Positions 2,077 to 20,494 of a stretch of DNA of 20,494 bases are shown here, in pieces. Each line of letters opens with the position of its first letter. Within the stretch, counting starts at the first letter, position 1. The position numbers and the translations under genes are program-made. The notes under the pieces are model-generated. The model was given only the letters and a program-made list of their open reading frames with translations, made no database searches and was not told the origin of the DNA. Origin of the DNA: a virus; IMG/VR virus record IMGVR_UViG_3300033153_003241, positions 1-20,494 of that record; one strand, 5' to 3'.

Positions 2077-2617
2077 CACGCTTTGAGGTTAGTCGTTCAA
2101 AGAAACTTACTTTCTCATTCACATCACGCGTCACTTCATCAGCAAGAGATTGTAGTTGAGAGAGTTCAACCTCTTCAATCTCCGGCTCAGTGTTGGCCTT
2201 GAGTGTTGATTCAAGTCCCTTAAATGCAACGAACTCATCGAGTTGAGTTACCTTACGGATAGCCATAGCCAACAGCGGGTCGGTGCTGTCATTGGATATG
2301 AACTCACGTAGTAATTGCTTCGCTTGATTCGCATCAAGTGATTCAATCTCCACGTTCTCCAGGATCGTAGGGGTATTAGGTACCACCGCTCGCTTGAGTA
2401 CTCGTGAGTCCTCTGCGATAGGTGTAATAGATGTTAGGGTAGGTAAGTTCCTACCTCTACCACAAAATTCTACGAACGCCAAACGCGCATCCTCGTAGTC
2501 GTTTGCGAACACTGTAAAGTAAGACAGCATTGTCTCACCTGCCGGTGCTACTCGGTCAATACTTTTGCTACCCTCACCTAAGTATGGATTGGGCACGGTT
2601 ACTGCAAATACTTTCAT
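2069..2617 (-). CDS. Hypothetical protein, 182 aa
   Basis: Unrecognised. The N-terminus (MKVFAVTVPNPYLGEGSKSIDR) leads into a region YFTVFANDYEDARLAFVEF that resembles small phage proteins with an alpha-beta fold. The C-terminal half is acidic and helical. I chose the second ATG (2617-2615) of the pair ATGCTTATG because the same double-ATG leader precedes the amidotransferase, where the second ATG must be the real start. The first ATG (2623) would add only two residues. Confidence 0.72.
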   Translation of the reverse strand: MKVFAVTVPNPYLGEGSKSIDRVAPAGETMLSYFTVFANDYEDARLAFVEFCGRGRNLPTLTSITPIAEDSRVLKRAVVPNTPTILENVEIESLDANQAKQLLREFISNDSTDPLLAMAIRKVTQLDEFVAFKGLESTLKANTEPEIEEVELSQLQSLADEVTRDVNEKVSFFERLTSKRGE

Positions 2618-3505: not shown

Positions 3506-4386
3506 TACGATACATCTTTAAGTTCGTCACCCTCGTAGCCACACTCAAGTGACGACCACAATTCTATTACCTCATCCACAGCCTCTAGGTTGTAGGCACC
3601 ACACTCCATGCACTCTGAGTTGAAGTTTATCGGTGGATGTTCTGCGCCACACGCTTTACAATCGTAGGCACCATGCAGTGGTGCTTCAAGTTCGTATGCT
3701 ATCTCATCCAACTCATCGGTAGTAGTTATACCAAAGGATTCGTTCCAAGCATCCACATCGGCTTGGTCATCATCCCAATCGTATACGTAATTGCTGGATC
3801 CTGTGACGGCTGTGCTTCCGTAGTAGCGTACCGCCTTGCTGTGTGAGTCATTGCTGAACCAATTATCTCCAATCCATTCTCCAAGTTTCTCCCCGAAGAT
3901 GCACCATTCACCGGTGTTGTCAAGGAACACAACCTTGTTTGTACCACCTAAGTAAGTGTAGATAGCATCCTCAATGAAAGGATTGTCAAGCATCTCCATG
4001 CTCATGTTAGGTATTGTGCTGAGTAATTCTGCGAACTCAGCGGTATCGCTTTTGTCCTTAGTGCCGAAGCCGGATATCACACCGTTGTGTACAAGCCCTA
4101 GCGTATCCGTTACAGGGAACGGGTGTAGGTACTCATCGCTCATACCATGAGTAGCGATACGGAAGTGCAACAGCATGGGCTTGTTGCCCACATCTGAAGT
4201 CTTGAGCGACACATAGCGTTCGAGGAACGTGTTGAATGAGTCCCCACCTTTGTTAGGAAATTTCTCAATACATAGCACACCATCATTGATGTACAAAATA
4301 CCGGCACCATCATCGTTGTAGTTCCAACAGTTCTTTAGTTTTTTCTTAGGCAACATCTTGCCTGCATTCATAATTGCAATACACAT
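3505..4386 (-). CDS. Class II glutamine amidotransferase with C-terminal zinc ribbon
   Basis: Predicted Ntn-type glutaminase releasing ammonia from glutamine for a partner enzyme. The ATG at 4386 puts Cys at residue 2 (MCIAIMNAGK), the catalytic N-terminal nucleophile once Met is removed. An earlier ATG pair (4392, 4413) would bury that Cys, so I reject it. Further family features are the NYNDDGAGILY segment, HFRIATHG, and LVHNGVISG, which resembles the conserved HNG block of these enzymes. The C-terminal part holds CKACG and CMECG pairs, a zinc ribbon. It lies 50 bases downstream of the amidoligase gene, and glutaminase-amidoligase pairs are a known theme in phages and bacteria. The product of the pathway is unknown. 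Confidence 0.85.
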   Translation of the reverse strand: MCIAIMNAGKMLPKKKLKNCWNYNDDGAGILYINDGVLCIEKFPNKGGDSFNTFLERYVSLKTSDVGNKPMLLHFRIATHGMSDEYLHPFPVTDTLGLVHNGVISGFGTKDKSDTAEFAELLSTIPNMSMEMLDNPFIEDAIYTYLGGTNKVVFLDNTGEWCIFGEKLGEWIGDNWFSNDSHSKAVRYYGSTAVTGSSNYVYDWDDDQADVDAWNESFGITTTDELDEIAYELEAPLHGAYDCKACGAEHPPINFNSECMECGAYNLEAVDEVIELWSSLECGYEGDELKDVS

Positions 4387-4436: not shown

Positions 4437-5798
4437 TTATTTTTCTGAAAGTTCATCCATTGCATTCAGCGTAGGCTGTGCATCCAAGCGGTACGCTGAC
4501 CCGTATGTTCCTACGAGTCTGTCCACTGCATCTTGTGAGTAGGTTACTATCACACTACCTTTGACCTTGCGGTTTTTCAATCGTCTTACTGCGCTCTTGA
4601 AGAACACACCCACACCATCAGCACTGAAGTCGTATGAGCCATACAAATCATCAGCGAACTGAGCGTACAGGCTCACTACCTTGAACACTTGCTCCTCTGA
4701 GTACACCTTACGCAAGTGAACACCCAATTCGTTCTTAGGACTGAGCATCATTGTAATTACTTGCAACGGCTTGATGTGTTCGTTCTTGCACATGATGCGC
4801 ATCAGATCCCTGCGCCACAATAGATTGGTGCTAGACTTGAACGCCGGTGGTAAACGAAACTCAATGTATCTACTTTGAACATTGACTGCCGAGTATTTAC
4901 CGGCACGCTTGTAGTCAACAGGCTAGCGCTTGAGTGGTGAGTACGTGTTACCCAATCGGTGTCTCCATATTGCAAGGAACAGCGGAACGAAAGCAAGAAT
5001 ACTATCGAAGAAGTCCTCGCCCGAAGTACCACGCTTACCTACATTGATGTGCCCACCACATGCGCTGCTGTAATCAGCACCGAGATGTTCACGAAGCACT
5101 CGACTCTCCTTGATTTGCGTGTCCAACCTATCGGTAAACAAGTCAAACACAGGGCTAACCAATTCGAACCCGGAAGATTCACACAAACTACTGTCTGCCT
5201 CACGACACCATCCCGTGTCATCCACCTCATGCAAGTCCCACGAATAAATTACATCGCTATCCTCTTTCTCTACCTCGAAACCAATCGTGTGTCTAGTGTC
5301 GGGTGTAGTGTAGTCCCTGCGGAACCCTCCATGATACGGGTGAATTTTTTCCTGCATAGCGTCATACTCAGTTACGTAGCACTCACGTCTATCGCTCCAC
5401 CAAATCTCATTACCCTCATCGTCAATGTGGTATGTTTCCCCATCATCCTCGCAGTACAGCGTGTCATCTGACCATGCCCACTCGCCCTCATGACGGCTAC
5501 GACAGCCATCTATGTACCGAATTTGGTAACCATCTTCCATGTGCGGGAACCACACCGGGTCACCACATACCAAATGGCGCACGTTATCATTCCATTCATC
5601 AACAAGGACTGTAACCTCCTTGTATCCACCATCCATGTGAACCATGTGGGTTTCACATTCGCTTTCAACGGCGTACTCGCCCTCATACTCACTCGGTGCA
5701 GTCAGCACTAGACACACCGTGACTAGTCTTTGCTCACCATAGTAGTCGACAATCAAATTGTCCGACTCATCCGTTCTTCTATTATCATCCATAGGCAT
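4437..5798 (-). CDS. Amidoligase interrupted by in-frame TAG
   Basis: Predicted ATP-dependent ligase of the COOH-NH2 (glutamine-synthetase-like) amidoligase superfamily, forming an amide or peptide bond on an unknown substrate. The N-terminal part (residues ~1-155) is acidic and rich in Trp, Cys and His. The amidoligase core follows: HTIGFEVEKED, then CGGHINVG. Codon 292 is TAG (4925-4923), directly after GNTYSPLKR. The same frame continues PVDYKRAGKYSAVN and YIEFRLPP, the expected next motifs of the family, down to TAA at 4437. Without readthrough the product lacks the conserved EFR strand. I chose ATG 5798 or 5792 (ATGCCTATG); a GTG at 5828 is possible. The amidotransferase downstream is the likely ammonia donor. 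It could be a recent pseudogene, a readthrough gene or a sequencing error. Confidence 0.75.
4923..4925 (-). other. In-frame amber codon inside amidoligase
   Basis: TAG on the minus strand with context CGC TAG CCT. Both sides encode continuous amidoligase sequence in one frame. TAG also ends several other genes here (586, 1921, 6515, 9137, 10201, 11968), so genome-wide reassignment of TAG is unlikely. Confidence 0.85.
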
Positions 5799-5839
5799 AG
5801 ATTTATGTGCATCATTAGCCTTGCACACTTAGGCTTAGG

Positions 5840-5926
5840 GGACTGCATGGGACTCGAACCCATAGTACACCCAAACACCACGTTATAAACCAAAACCAAA
5901 AAGAATTGGTGCTTGTGTAGCAGTCC
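5840..5926 (-). ncRNA. tRNA-like three-way-junction RNA, copy 1
   Basis: The ends GGACTGC (5926-5920) and GCAGTCC (5846-5840) form a 7-bp acceptor-like stem. The 3' arm is a canonical tRNA T-arm: ATGGG, loop TTCGAGT, CCCAT (5863-5847). Between them, instead of D and anticodon arms, lies one extended hairpin: TACAC pairs with GTGTA at its base, then AGCACC with GGTGTT, enclosing a T-rich loop. I cannot fit a normal anticodon arm, and no CCA is encoded. It lies in the leader between the promoter at 5963-5997 and the amidoligase. RNase P and RNase Z might process it like a tRNA. It could instead be a decayed tRNA, but copy 2 argues for a maintained structure. Confidence 0.6.
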
Positions 5927-5935
5927 GTTTATAGT

Positions 5936-5946
5936 GTGGTCACCAC
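5936..5946. promoter_or_regulatory. Palindrome upstream of tRNA-like RNA 1
   Basis: GTGGTCACCAC (plus strand) is an 11-base near-perfect palindrome located nine bases before the 5' end of the tRNA-like element. The same palindrome with identical spacing precedes copy 2 (6486-6496). As RNA it can form GTGG-TGA-CCAC. It may be an operator, a processing signal or part of the RNA. Confidence 0.55.
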
Positions 5947-5962
5947 TTCCAAAACATCCCCA

Positions 5963-5997
5963 CAAACATAGGGTAACTATCTGATAATCAGTGTTAA
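5963..5997 (-). promoter_or_regulatory. Bipartite promoter for tRNA-like RNA and amidoligase operon
   Basis: On the minus strand TTAACACT (5997-5990) is followed after 19 bases by TATGTTTG (5970-5963), a perfect match to the Bacteroidota -7 box TAnnTTTG. A second TTTAACA box lies 11 bases further upstream (6009-6003). The promoter at 7713-7747 has the same elements and spacings. Transcription would begin near 5957, just before the palindrome and tRNA-like RNA. Confidence 0.7.
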
Positions 5998-6029
5998 AGA
6001 GTTGTTAAAACTCATTCTTAACCTTCGGT

Positions 6030-6194
6030 TCATCGGGTGAGTGACCTGATCACACCCACATCCACCGTACCATACGTGTCATGCACCTTACATAGGTACG
6101 CATGAGCCTCGCGCCATTTCCTGCTTTGCACACCATGTGTGTTCACACTCTTATACACAGCGAGGGCTTTCTTTATCCGGGTCAACTCATTCAT
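6030..6194 (-). CDS. Small basic protein, 54 aa
   Basis: ATG at 6194 overlaps the upstream stop (TGA 6193-6191) and opens 54 codons to TGA at 6032-6030. The product begins MNELTRIKKALAVYKSVNT and contains SRKWREAHAYLCKVHD, giving a basic helical protein. Overlap geometry and a protein-like composition support a real gene in what would otherwise be a gap of about 265 bases. It is unrecognised; a nucleic-acid-binding role is possible from its charge, but nothing specific is seen. Confidence 0.6.
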   Translation of the reverse strand: MNELTRIKKALAVYKSVNTHGVQSRKWREAHAYLCKVHDTYGTVDVGVIRSLTR

Positions 6195-6397
6195 ACCTCA
6201 ACGAATTTCAGTCCATAAACAGAGGGGTAATACATGTTCACCTTACCACTCGAACTAGGCTTGTGTGGTGGGTAAATTCCACGCACTACATCATTCACAC
6301 CACGAGACGTTACCACAGCATCACCCATGTTCACCTCTACACCAGTGTCTATACGCACTAACTTCACTTCAACTCCATCGTAATTTTTCATACTCAT
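6191..6397 (-). CDS. Conserved phage hypothetical protein, 68 aa
   Basis: Small beta-rich protein. The pattern GDAVVTSRGVNDVVRGIYPPHKPSSSGKV with a C-terminal YYPSVYGLKF resembles a small hypothetical protein seen in other phages. No function is established. Starts at 6397 (ATGAGTATG) or 6391 differ by two residues. It begins 16 bases after the second tRNA-like RNA, so that RNA lies in its leader. Its stop overlaps the next start (ATGA). Confidence 0.75.
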   Translation of the reverse strand: MSMKNYDGVEVKLVRIDTGVEVNMGDAVVTSRGVNDVVRGIYPPHKPSSSGKVNMYYPSVYGLKFVEV

Positions 6398-6412
6398 TCA
6401 CATTTATTTAGG

Positions 6413-6476
6413 GGACTGCGAGTGTCACGAGCACTCAGTACAAACAGGGCACAGGTATCCCCTTTGTAGGCAGTCC
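6413..6476 (-). ncRNA. tRNA-like three-way-junction RNA, copy 2
   Basis: It has the same terminal stem as copy 1: GGACTGC (6476-6470) with GCAGTCC (6419-6413). The 3' arm is again 5-7-5, GAGTG, CTCGTGA, CACTC (6436-6420), but with different bases that still pair. The middle hairpin TACAAA with TTTGTA, then GGG with CCC, is shorter than in copy 1. Junction sequences (TACA entering, TGTACT leaving) and the following CCCCTAA are shared. The T-loop is not canonical here, so aminoacylation is doubtful. Compensatory changes in two stems against an invariant first stem indicate selection on structure. Confidence 0.55.
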
Positions 6477-6485
6477 GTTGTAGGT

Positions 6486-6496
6486 GTGGTCACCAC
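6486..6496. promoter_or_regulatory. Palindrome upstream of tRNA-like RNA 2
   Basis: GTGGTCACCAC, identical to 5936-5946 and at the same distance from its tRNA-like element. On the minus strand the similarity extends upstream through a TTTTGGA segment. There is no perfect TAnnTTTG box here. Confidence 0.55.
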
Positions 6497-6514
6497 CATC
6501 CAAAAAGTACAGTA

Positions 6515-6736
6515 CTATTTGCGCTTTGCCCTACGGGTTTCACGCTGGGCTTGTGCCCTATGTACCTTGCGGTCAATCCGGTCAGCATACATGTTCTCAA
6601 GTGCATCGGCTTTCATCTTGCCTCGCACCTTACGCTTACTTGCACTTGCAGTCTTGCCGCCTAGTGTTGGTGCGCTCACCACTCGGACTACGTACTCATA
6701 GCCCTTGTGGTTGCGGTGTGTTGCGAAATTTCCCAT
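6515..6736 (-). CDS. Small highly basic protein, 73 aa
   Basis: Strongly Lys and Arg rich, especially the C-terminal half (SKRKVRGKMKADA, RIDRKVHRAQAQRETRRAKRK), so it may bind nucleic acid. The N-terminal part GYEYVVRVVSAPTLGG looks like a short beta hairpin. No family recognised. The ATG at 6736 overlaps the upstream stop (TAATG), and it ends with TAG at 6515-6517 just ahead of the second tRNA-like RNA. Confidence 0.7.
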   Translation of the reverse strand: MGNFATHRNHKGYEYVVRVVSAPTLGGKTASASKRKVRGKMKADALENMYADRIDRKVHRAQAQRETRRAKRK

Positions 6737-18690: not shown

Positions 18691-20494
18691 ATGGCCAAAA
18701 TAGATGTCACTGTAGAAAACGGATCTGGACTTGTCTTTGACTTGACAATACCTCCTTGTACAACTATCCTTGTTACAAAGGGAGATGTCAAGCAACTTCC
18801 TGGTGCTAAGGGTCAACCGGGTGATAAAGGACAGAAAGGTCAGAAAGGTGCTCAAGGCGAAAAAGGAATTGAGGGCGCTAAGGGTGCTGAAGGCGCGAAG
18901 GGCGCTGAAGGTGCGAAGGGACAAAAGGGCGCTCAAGGAGAAAAGGGTGACCAAGGCTCAAAAGGTGAAGAGGGTTCTAAAGGAGAAGAGGGAACTAAGG
19001 GCGCACAAGGTGATAAGGGTAGTCAAGGTGACAAGGGTAGCCAAGGCGACAAAGGTGCCCAGGGCGCCAAAGGCCAAGAAGGTTCTAAGGGTGAAGAAGG
19101 AGACAAGGGACAAAAAGGTATAGATGGAACTAAAGGCGCCCAGGGTGACAAGGGTCAAAAGGGTAGCCAAGGTGACAAAGGACAAAAAGGTATAGACGGC
19201 ACCAAGGGAGAACAAGGTGATAAAGGTGCACAAGGCGACAAAGGTGCCCAAGGAGACAAGGGCGCACAGGGCGATAAAGGAGAACAAGGAGAGAAAGGTA
19301 TAGATGGAACCAAAGGTGCGCAGGGAGATAAAGGTGCACAAGGTGACAAAGGTGAACAGGGAGAGAAAGGTATAGATGGCACTAAAGGCGCACAAGGCGA
19401 TAAGGGTGCTCAAGGTGATAAGGGCGAGAAAGGTATCGATGGAACCAAGGGCGCTCAAGGAGATAAAGGAGAGAAGGGTACCGCTGGAGATAAAGGTGCA
19501 CAAGGAGATAAAGGAACAGCGGGAGCCAAAGGTGCACAAGGAGCATCTGGTGAAGGTGGTTCTAAGGGTGATCAGGGAGATAAAGGCCAGAAGGGTACTA
19601 CTGGTGATAAAGGTGCACAAGGAGATAAGGGTGCACAAGGAGCGTCTGGTCAAGACGGGTCTAAAGGTGCCCAAGGTGAAAAAGGTACTGCTGGTGATAA
19701 AGGTGCCCAAGGCGAGAAGGGTACTACTGGTGATAAAGGTGCACAGGGTGCTTCCGGTGAAGGCGGAGACAAAGGCGCCCAGGGTGACAAAGGAGAAAAG
19801 GGTACCGCTGGAGACAAGGGTCAGAAGGGTGAACAAGGCCAAGAAGGTATTGGTGTAAAAGGTGCACAAGGCGACAAGGGTACCGCTGGTGACAAGGGTG
19901 CACAGGGTGATAAAGGTGCACAAGGAGATAAAGGTGCTCAAGGTGCCTCCGGTGAAGGTGGCTCGAAAGGTGCCCAAGGCGATAAGGGTGCACAAGGAGA
20001 TAAGGGTGCACAAGGAGAGAAGGGTATCGACGGCACTAAAGGCGCTCAAGGAGATAAGGGTGCCCAAGGAGCATCGGGTGATGACGGAGCGAAAGGTGAC
20101 CAAGGAGATAAAGGACAAAAAGGAACTGCTGGCGACAAAGGCCAGAAGGGTACTGCTGGAGATAAGGGTGCTCAAGGTGCCTCCGGTGAAGGCGGAGACA
20201 AAGGTGCCCAGGGAGACAAGGGACAGAAGGGTATCGATGGTACTAAAGGTGCACAAGGAGACAAGGGACAGAAAGGTGCCCAAGGAGATAAGGGTCAAAA
20301 AGGTGCACAAGGAGATAAGGGAGAAAAAGGTACTGCTGGAGACAAGGGTGCGCAAGGAGCGTCCGGTGAAGGCGGAGCGAAAGGTGCACAAGGAGATAAG
20401 GGCCAAAAAGGACAGACTGGAGACAAAGGTCAAAAAGGACAGACTGGTGATAAAGGTGCTCAAGGCGCTTCTGGTGAAGGCGGTGCTAAGGGTG
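18691..20494 (+). CDS. Collagen-like Gly-X-Y fibre protein (3' end outside window)
   Basis: The first ~37 residues (MAKIDVTVENGSGLVFDLTI) form a short beta segment, likely an attachment or trimerisation cap. From residue 38 (18802) the protein is built from Gly-X-Y triplets to the end of the window, about 188 of them, mostly GDK, GAQ, GEK, GTK, GID and the block GAS-GEG. One interruption is visible near 19850, where GQEGIGVKG breaks the phase. The chain should form a trimeric collagen-type helix used as a rigid tail or head fibre. It is rich in Lys, Asp, Glu and Gln and poor in Pro, so salt bridges rather than proline would stabilise it. There is no stop in the window; the receptor-binding end is missing. 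Confidence 0.9.
   Translation, partial: MAKIDVTVENGSGLVFDLTIPPCTTILVTKGDVKQLPGAKGQPGDKGQKGQKGAQGEKGIEGAKGAEGAKGAEGAKGQKGAQGEKGDQGSKGEEGSKGEEGTKGAQGDKGSQGDKGSQGDKGAQGAKGQEGSKGEEGDKGQKGIDGTKGAQGDKGQKGSQGDKGQKGIDGTKGEQGDKGAQGDKGAQGDKGAQGDKGEQGEKGIDGTKGAQGDKGAQGDKGEQGEKGIDGTKGAQGDKGAQGDKGEKGIDGTKGAQGDKGEKGTAGDKGAQGDKGTAGAKGAQGASGEGGSKGDQGDKGQKGTTGDKGAQGDKGAQGASGQDGSKGAQGEKGTAGDKGAQGEKGTTGDKGAQGASGEGGDKGAQGDKGEKGTAGDKGQKGEQGQEGIGVKGAQGDKGTAGDKGAQGDKGAQGDKGAQGASGEGGSKGAQGDKGAQGDKGAQGEKGIDGTKGAQGDKGAQGASGDDGAKGDQGDKGQKGTAGDKGQKGTAGDKGAQGASGEGGDKGAQGDKGQKGIDGTKGAQGDKGQKGAQGDKGQKGAQGDKGEKGTAGDKGAQGASGEGGAKGAQGDKGQKGQTGDKGQKGQTGDKGAQGASGEGGAKG
18802..20494 (+). repeat. Coding repeat of nine-base Gly-X-Y units
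   Basis: Tandem nine-base units such as GGAGATAAG and GGTGCACAA recur with many synonymous changes. Larger blocks containing GCCTCCGGTGAAGGCGG recur several times (for example near 19750, 19947, 20180 and 20358), pointing to block duplication. Long open frames on the opposite strand here are by-products of the repeat. Confidence 0.85.

Follow-up and report, generated by a model that had tools for sequence, protein, structure and literature searches.

Two tRNA-like RNA elements that lack an anticodon arm lie ahead of early genes of a marine crAss-like phage, on the minus strand of the window, i.e., the whole stretch of DNA analyzed here (20,494 nucleotides, IMG/VR virus record IMGVR_UViG_3300033153_003241). 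Comparison with related phages revealed a common fold with covarying arms, a conserved gene order, exchange of an element for a real tRNA, and exchange of the neighboring cargo genes. With a probability of roughly 40%, these tRNA-derived leaders serve as punctuation, at which host tRNA-maturation enzymes would cut the early RNA before the next start codon. Each element is preceded by a conserved hairpin, GUGGNGACCACAC, and by the motif AACGGAC, a module that is probably a separate and older part of the site and a candidate binding site for a small basic protein. The initial annotation had placed its repeats correctly at the two junctions, but the repeated unit is larger, including this upstream module and, after copy 1, a candidate pseudoknot; the module and the basic-protein gene, the most widely conserved parts, had been missed. 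The features are as follows.

6515–6736, minus: basic-protein gene, 73 aa, ending RKVHRAQAQRETRRAKRK; no Pfam or PHROGs family
6483–6497, minus: conserved hairpin GUGGUGACCACAC of copy 2, with covarying flanking pair
6473–6479, minus: AACGGAC motif of copy 2
6413–6476, minus: copy 2, type II element (sequence, fold, covariance model, and stem counts)
6409–6412, minus: CCUA tail of copy 2
6191–6397, minus: 68-aa ORF beginning 16 nt past copy 2; cargo, swapped or missing in relatives
5963–5991, minus: conserved region upstream of copy 1, with the CTGATTATCAG palindrome and TATGTTTG, kept in relatives
5933–5947, minus: conserved hairpin GUGGUGACCACAC of copy 1, with covarying flanking pair
5923–5929, minus: AACGGAC motif of copy 1, kept behind the hairpin; its GGAC doubles as the 5' strand of P1
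5840–5926, minus: copy 1, type I tRNA-like element (sequence, fold, and homologues with compensatory changes)
5836–5839, minus: copy 1 tail, CCUA; the consensus behind P1 is [A/C]C[U/C]A
5805–5834, minus: candidate H-type pseudoknot, GCCU-AA-GUGUGCA-AGGC-UAAUGA-UGCACAU, with both-sided stem 2 changes across relatives
4923–5828, minus: after copy 1, first part of an amidoligase-like gene that is a single 458-aa frame in the related genome G001

The minus strand is the coding strand here, and the genes, the hairpin, and the position of the T-arm all agree on it. The stems are symmetric and can be drawn on the plus strand, as in the initial annotation, but that reading was rejected in view of the genes, the T-arm placement, and the conserved context. 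Both copies share one order on the minus strand: hairpin GTGGTGACCACAC, four bases, AACGGAC, closed three-way junction, and CCTA. Copy 2 (6476 to 6413) comes first, directly behind the 73-aa gene, and is followed by the 68-aa ORF; copy 1 (5926 to 5840) lies 550 bases beyond copy 2 and leads into the amidoligase-like gene. The putative function of the latter was assigned by comparison with amidoligase/GATase genes of phi14:2 rather than by a profile match. This gene occupies two frames in the window (4437–4820 and 4923–5828, minus) and one in G001, owing to a frameshift or a sequencing error. Elsewhere in the window, a collagen-like open frame (18691–20493, plus) with G-x-x-G-x-K-G repeats runs past the end of the fragment.

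The region upstream of copy 1 has features of its own. The −7 promoter consensus of Bacteroidetes is TAnnTTTG, and TATGTTTG agrees with it, making this region a candidate host promoter. A blastn search of the promoter-like 33-nt stretch against phages, insensitive at such length, yielded nothing relevant. The clade also keeps a palindrome, CTGANNNTCAG (5981–5991, minus), and a TTTAACA repeat in this region, and CTCTTTAACA, ~50 nt away, resembles the rrn boxA; the palindrome/TTTAACA stretch is a possible operator, promoter, or boxA.

The identical closing stem GGACTGC/GCAGTCC (P1), first noted in the initial annotation, is exact at 5840–5926 and 6413–6476. In copy 1, P1 encloses a long P2 arm with UUGGUUU in its loop and a T-arm, P3 (AUGGG-UUCGAGU-CCCAU), stacked directly on P1. 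Copy 2 has P2 UACAA/UUGUA with an inner AGGG/CCCU hairpin, and P3 GAGUG-CUCGUGA-CACUC. The T-arm-like hairpin originally described for both copies thus has a canonical T-loop in copy 1, but in copy 2 the loop is CTCGTGA. The type II inner hairpin (P2 loop, 6435–6460, minus) bears a motif close to GGNATANCTATGCC, which recurs in the sister phage G033 without P1 or P3, and a variant, GGGATAACTATG, is found ahead of the basic-protein gene in L100, L111, and L170; this motif is possibly a further binding site.

On either strand, the folds of both copies outscored those of dinucleotide-shuffled controls, with z of −2.6 to −3.3. Such scores alone are moderate evidence, and homologues provide the real test. 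Pattern scans of viral contigs identified the same pair of elements in about a dozen related marine contigs, all of the sequences compared being from uncultivated genomes. A covariance model seeded with 8 type II sequences recovered a type II copy from outside the seed, that of G024 (locus L177), with 42.6 bits (E 1e-8), and found no match outside the clade in the phage sets searched. For stem counts, strands were set by hand in 8 type I and 6 type II sequences because MAFFT misaligns type I against type II. Pairs were kept at 93–100% within each sequence's own strands, while swapping strands between sequences lowered pairing to 34% for P2a and 47% for P2b in type I and to 36% for P3 in type II. 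Two-sided changes were seen in P1, P2a, P2b, and P3. The variants of P1 are GGACTGC/GCAGTCC, GGACTAC/GTAGTCC, GGACGGC/GCCGTCC, GGACAGC/GTTGTCC, and GGACTGA/TCAGTCC, and P2 and P3 vary more than P1, yet stay paired. The tRNA-like three-way junction with covarying arms and no anticodon arm, as initially proposed, is thus borne out by homologues that keep the arms through compensatory changes. Matches to GGACTGC...GCAGTCC beyond the window clade have no hairpin and were judged to be chance occurrences. Among cultured relatives, Panino, elemo, and MW202828 have neither the hairpin nor the basic protein, and a search of phi14:2 with the protein profile only gave no match to the basic protein.

The two types differ in how closely they approach a tRNA. 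Type I elements retain a perfect T-loop, GGGUUCGAGUCCC, while the outer T-stem and neighboring pairs change. Their P1 and P3 form a 12-bp acceptor/T stack, built as 7+5 in the window, L105, and L177 and as 6+6 in L026 and L036, and the P2 loop always contains (U/A)GGUU, mostly as UUGGUUA, as in the tRNA D-loop. Type II elements keep the three-way topology and the stack without the canonical T-loop (e.g., CUCGUGA, UUCGUGA, or AGCGAGA). In L003 and L010, the stack is 11 bp or interrupted. A tail, [A/C]C[U/C]A, stands behind P1 in every type I and type II copy of the window clade; it is mostly CUA, with CCCA in L026 and L177 and TCAA in G033. The 3' end of the element lies 4–45 nt ahead of a start codon, and in L003 and L010 the start, AC-U-AUG, comes directly behind P1.

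Neither copy is a tRNA, a tmRNA, or a member of an Rfam family. A clean tRNA model with an anticodon for copy 1 would, according to the initial annotation, have contradicted its reading; ARAGORN found no tRNA in the window, and the Rfam tRNA model gave no match there. A likeness to tmRNA had been noted as well, which holds for the topology, but the Rfam tmRNA model did not match the window at its gathering cut-off or at E ≤ 10, and in homologues it matched only a 17-nt T-arm fragment in L177. No family of Rfam release 15 exceeded its curated cut-off for either element. A tRNA-Gln(ttg) called by ARAGORN in G001, L015, and L113, and absent from the window and most homologues, has 2 bp in its D stem, and its anticodon stem consists of G.U, G.U, U-A, U.U, and U-A pairs; this cloverleaf was rejected because it is contradicted by the covarying P2 and its D and anticodon stems are very weak. 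The YrlA model (RF02553) did not match the window, and its partial match to the type I copy of L177 (19.4 bits, E 0.45, cut-off 69) was set aside as too weak and of the wrong permutation. Low-scoring Rfam matches such as NEAT1 and SNORD27 were regarded as chance, and L200 appears to be a degraded tRNA-Lys, not a family member. In a scan for a T-arm plus ACTA, 94 of the 127 matches were ordinary tRNA or tmRNA genes, and the remainder includes long-range tmRNA halves.

The hairpin, AACGGAC, and the basic protein extend well beyond this clade. At least 12 divergent phage lineages, with leaders that are otherwise unlike, share the protein–hairpin pair, and the hairpin with AACGGAC is also present in phages whose terminase is only 34–49% identical to that of the window. 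In those distant phages, AACGGAC leads into a simple hairpin, a different junction, or some other kind of leader. Because the module is kept in phages without the tRNA-like fold, it is not there for the sake of tRNA enzymes. The pair adjoining the GTG/CAC core is A-T, G-C, C-G, or T-A depending on the lineage, with one U.G and some mismatches in the L160 group and L111; this covariation indicates that the hairpin extends beyond the core and closes a 7-base loop, GNGACCA. Each genome has only one or two hairpins, which is why a general phage promoter was rejected, and the spacing from hairpin to GG varies by 2 nt. Hairpin matches in L096, L163, L165, L166, L168, L171, L175, L176, L346, and L347 have no basic-protein gene and were attributed to chance.

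In every lineage that carries the hairpin, a small basic protein is encoded directly upstream of it, and in L100 and L111 the hairpin is found on both sides of this gene. The N terminus of the protein is divergent and the C terminus reads R-A-x-x-Q-R-x-x-R-R-A-K-R; 11 sequences share 7 invariant positions, counting the initial Met, among them the C-terminal R..QR..RR.(K)R. It belongs to no Pfam or PHROGs family and has no profile similarity to lambda N. Its gene is the first or second after a strand switch and opens a long co-directed early operon. By its terminase matches, the group falls near Crassvirales and relatives, and a virion protein of G001 matches the crassvirus muzzle domain. The G001 record (L150–L154, 82,425 bases) contains near-identical genes near 7.6–11 kb and 67.6–71 kb, which points to a circular genome of ~60 kb (G003 is 60,157).

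G033, which was found through its basic-protein gene, is a sister phage with a terminase 79% identical to that of the window, and it carries a variant of the hairpin, GTGGCGACCACAC, twice. The first is followed, in the type II slot, by a complete tRNA-Tyr(GTA) with a cloverleaf, called by ARAGORN. This tRNA scores 47.9 bits (E 1e-9) against the Rfam tRNA model in an unfiltered search; the fast filter missed it. The second hairpin is followed by a type I-like element; its P1, GGGGUGU/GCACCCC, is entirely different and begins 7 bases past the GG of AACGGAC. AACGGAC can thus be separated as a module from the tRNA-like fold, and the tRNA-Tyr in the type II slot indicates that a tRNA and a tRNA-like element are interchangeable there.

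Behind type I elements, and behind the tRNA-Tyr of G033, lies a candidate pseudoknot, GCC(C/U)-NN-S2-(A/G)GGC-L3-S2', where S2 is GUGUGCA, AUGUGUA, GUGUGUA, AUGUGCA, or CGUGCA and is matched each time by S2'; two pairs of S2 change cleanly on both sides. A scan found 3 patterns of this type in the whole window, so the weight of the candidate comes from the comparison only. In the window, the probable start of the amidoligase-like gene follows closely after it. What lies between the two copies differs among relatives: some have the 68-aa ORF, others a different ORF, and L026, with a spacing of 264, has no ORF. Because this intervening cargo is swapped or absent, the elements are not tied to one gene. 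A further form is the T-arm minihelix, found in L036 and L177 directly ahead of another ORF and after a long structured stretch, with a 6-bp acceptor, a 6-bp T-stem, a UUCGAUU loop, and an ACTA tail. In L036, a type II copy has recombined and the minihelix has taken the place of its 3' half. In L177, it reads GGGUGU-10 nt-AGGGGG-UUCGAUU-CCCCCU-ACACUC-ACUA and is found on the minus strand ~400 bases past the type II copy.

Processing punctuation, one of the roles suggested in the initial annotation, has gained support from the genuine tRNA-Tyr of G033, although cleavage is predicted by analogy with tRNA. The elements would be mimics of the acceptor/T-arm half of tRNA that have lost the anticodon arm and lie inside an early crAss-like phage transcript. 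We infer that the 12-bp stack would be recognized by RNase P on its 5' side and by RNase Z or an equivalent enzyme behind the tail, so that the polycistronic early RNA would be cut just ahead of the next start codon and the new mRNA 5' end capped by a stem or pseudoknot, with a likely effect on expression; the basic protein, encoded directly before the hairpin, would bind the hairpin/AACGGAC module. This explanation is favored because a tRNA in a polycistronic leader must be cut out and the elements share its slot, and because they retain what RNase P and RNase Z measure, T-loop and stack length, while dropping the D and anticodon arms, which are not needed. RNase P requires the T-loop and not the D-loop; the elbow is clamped by RNase Z, for which CCA acts as a deterrent (PMC4919913). 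Among the strongest objections are the type II loop, which is not a canonical T-loop, and the predominance of a CUA tail over the CCA preferred by RNase P; the 11-bp or interrupted stack of L003 and L010 and the CCCA tail, an RNase Z antideterminant, in L026 and L177 also count against it.

A control site resembling lambda nut is a possible alternative, though a less likely one. Here, the basic protein would bind the GUGGNGACCACAC hairpin in nascent early RNA, as lambda N binds boxB, and would make the polymerase or transcript competent for a long operon, the three-way junction being accessory. The adjacency of protein and hairpin in every lineage, the invariant C terminus, the place of the gene at the head of a long operon, the scarcity and covariation of the hairpin, its occurrence on both sides of the gene in L100 and L111, and the variable cargo all agree with this idea, but the 7-nt loop is not a GNRA-like pentaloop as in boxB, no boxA-like sequence lies near copy 2, the protein has no profile similarity to N, and the likeness to tRNA and the tRNA-Tyr are left unexplained. 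The hairpin and the basic protein point to a further function, probably the older one, to which lambda N/nut comes closest as a model; punctuation and a nut-like function can coexist. It is rather unlikely that the hairpin acts instead as a DNA promoter for an RNA polymerase of the phage itself, as in N4, with transcription starting at GGAC and P1 protecting the transcript from decay as a 5'-terminal stem. Crassvirales early genes are transcribed by a virion RNA polymerase (PMC10136315), and in several unrelated leaders (L160, L158, L101, and L180) a stem begins at the GG, as a promoter would predict; however, the first early gene, that of the basic protein, is upstream of the hairpin, so that the gene order fits less well, the spacing from hairpin to GG is variable by 2 nt, the type I P1 of G033 starts 7 nt after GG, and the adjacency of protein and hairpin has no explanation.

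Less probable again is a translation-control leader or tRNA decoy, which would bind EF-Tu, a synthetase, a modification enzyme, or the ribosome and thereby control the adjacent start codon or titrate the factor. The short distance to the start codon (4–45 nt), the AC-U-AUG behind P1 in L003 and L010, and the candidate pseudoknot adjoining the AUG behind type I suit such a role, whereas the gene downstream varies by exchange and is sometimes missing, and for a decoy the cis position within the early operon is odd. That these are decaying tRNA genes without function seems very improbable: a real tRNA-Tyr occupies the site in G033 and the type II T-loop has been lost, but compensatory changes rebuild the arms in many lineages, and P1, the tail, and the hairpin are retained.

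Several known systems are partly similar to these elements. The tRNA-like domain of tmRNA (RF00023) similarly combines an acceptor stem, a T-arm, and one long arm without an anticodon arm; the phage elements, in contrast, have contiguous 5' and 3' ends, span 64–91 nt, contain no tag ORF, and lack the GGAUUCGAC D-loop segment. With tRNA, type I shares the 7-bp acceptor and the 5-bp T-arm with its UUCGAGU loop, and its NC(U/C)A tail may correspond to the NCCA 3' end, whereas an anticodon arm and D stem are missing and the middle arm is variable in length and sequence. Bacterial Y RNA (YrlA) is likewise a tRNA mimic without an anticodon. Y RNA, however, is a permuted tRNA mimic that ends in a Ro-binding stem, whereas the ends of the phage elements are in the acceptor stem. 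Lambda N/nut boxB also combines a small arginine-rich protein with a promoter-proximal early RNA hairpin at one or two sites per genome and a long operon, but here the arginine-rich part is C-terminal, the loop is GNGACCA, copy 2 is without boxA, and a tRNA-like part follows. N4-type hairpin promoters also precede early genes and are few per genome, but differ in gene order and in the constancy of spacing. The precursor of the C4 antisense RNA of phages P1 and P7 is cut by RNase P and, like other non-tRNA substrates of this enzyme, presents a tRNA-like cleavage site (PMC11143913); C4 is an antisense repressor, whereas the elements described here are early-operon leaders whose cleavage is predicted.

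Other reduced tRNA-like RNAs came to light during these searches. Two phage contigs carry RNAs of 81–82 nt, at 2105–2185 (plus) of L227 and 4069–4150 (minus) of L261, whose matches to the Rfam tmRNA model cover it from one end to the other (61.4 and 48.3 bits, respectively) although the RNAs lack the reading-frame part; both have ACTA tails. They are apparent mini-tmRNAs reduced to the tRNA-like domain, and that of L227 sits between tRNA genes. In an unrelated phage, an isolated mini tRNA-like element, GGGCTGT-AGCTTGTTGGGTAACAAG-...-ATGGGTTCGAGTCCCAATCAGTCC-ACTA (L216, ~6451–6472, minus; L220, 2678–2699, plus), lies between a terminator-like hairpin and an ORF and has an acceptor, a D-like arm, and a T-arm, but no anticodon arm.

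The combination of protein, hairpin, and tRNA-like leader appears to be undescribed. Neither the RNA elements nor the basic protein belong to a family of Rfam, Pfam, or PHROGs, and a literature search of incomplete coverage on crAss-like promoters, antitermination, hairpin promoters, and tRNA-like leaders found nothing alike, nor any description of a protein or RNA site controlling early genes in crAss-like phages. Mimicry of tRNA by RNA viruses is known, and so are phage RNAs cut by RNase P (PMC11143913). We tentatively propose, from comparative evidence, a new RNA control cassette composed of an arginine-rich protein, its cognate hairpin with AACGGAC, and an exchangeable leader, which in one clade would be built from tRNA, with a pseudoknot behind it; host tRNA-maturation enzymes, recruited in cis, may thereby set the ends of early mRNAs. 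The leaders of that clade comprise a real tRNA-Tyr, anticodon-less tRNA-like elements, and T-arm minihelices, and both natural states, tRNA and tRNA-like, can be compared at one site.

Among the viruses of Bacteroidetes, the crAss-like phages rank with the most abundant, and, to our knowledge, little has been learned about the control of their early genes beyond the virion polymerase. With its place at the head of the early operon, the conserved protein–hairpin pair offers a concrete candidate for such control. If our reading is correct, the tRNA-like leaders would be one of the rare instances in which a DNA virus cuts or arms its own mRNAs through tRNA mimicry in cis.
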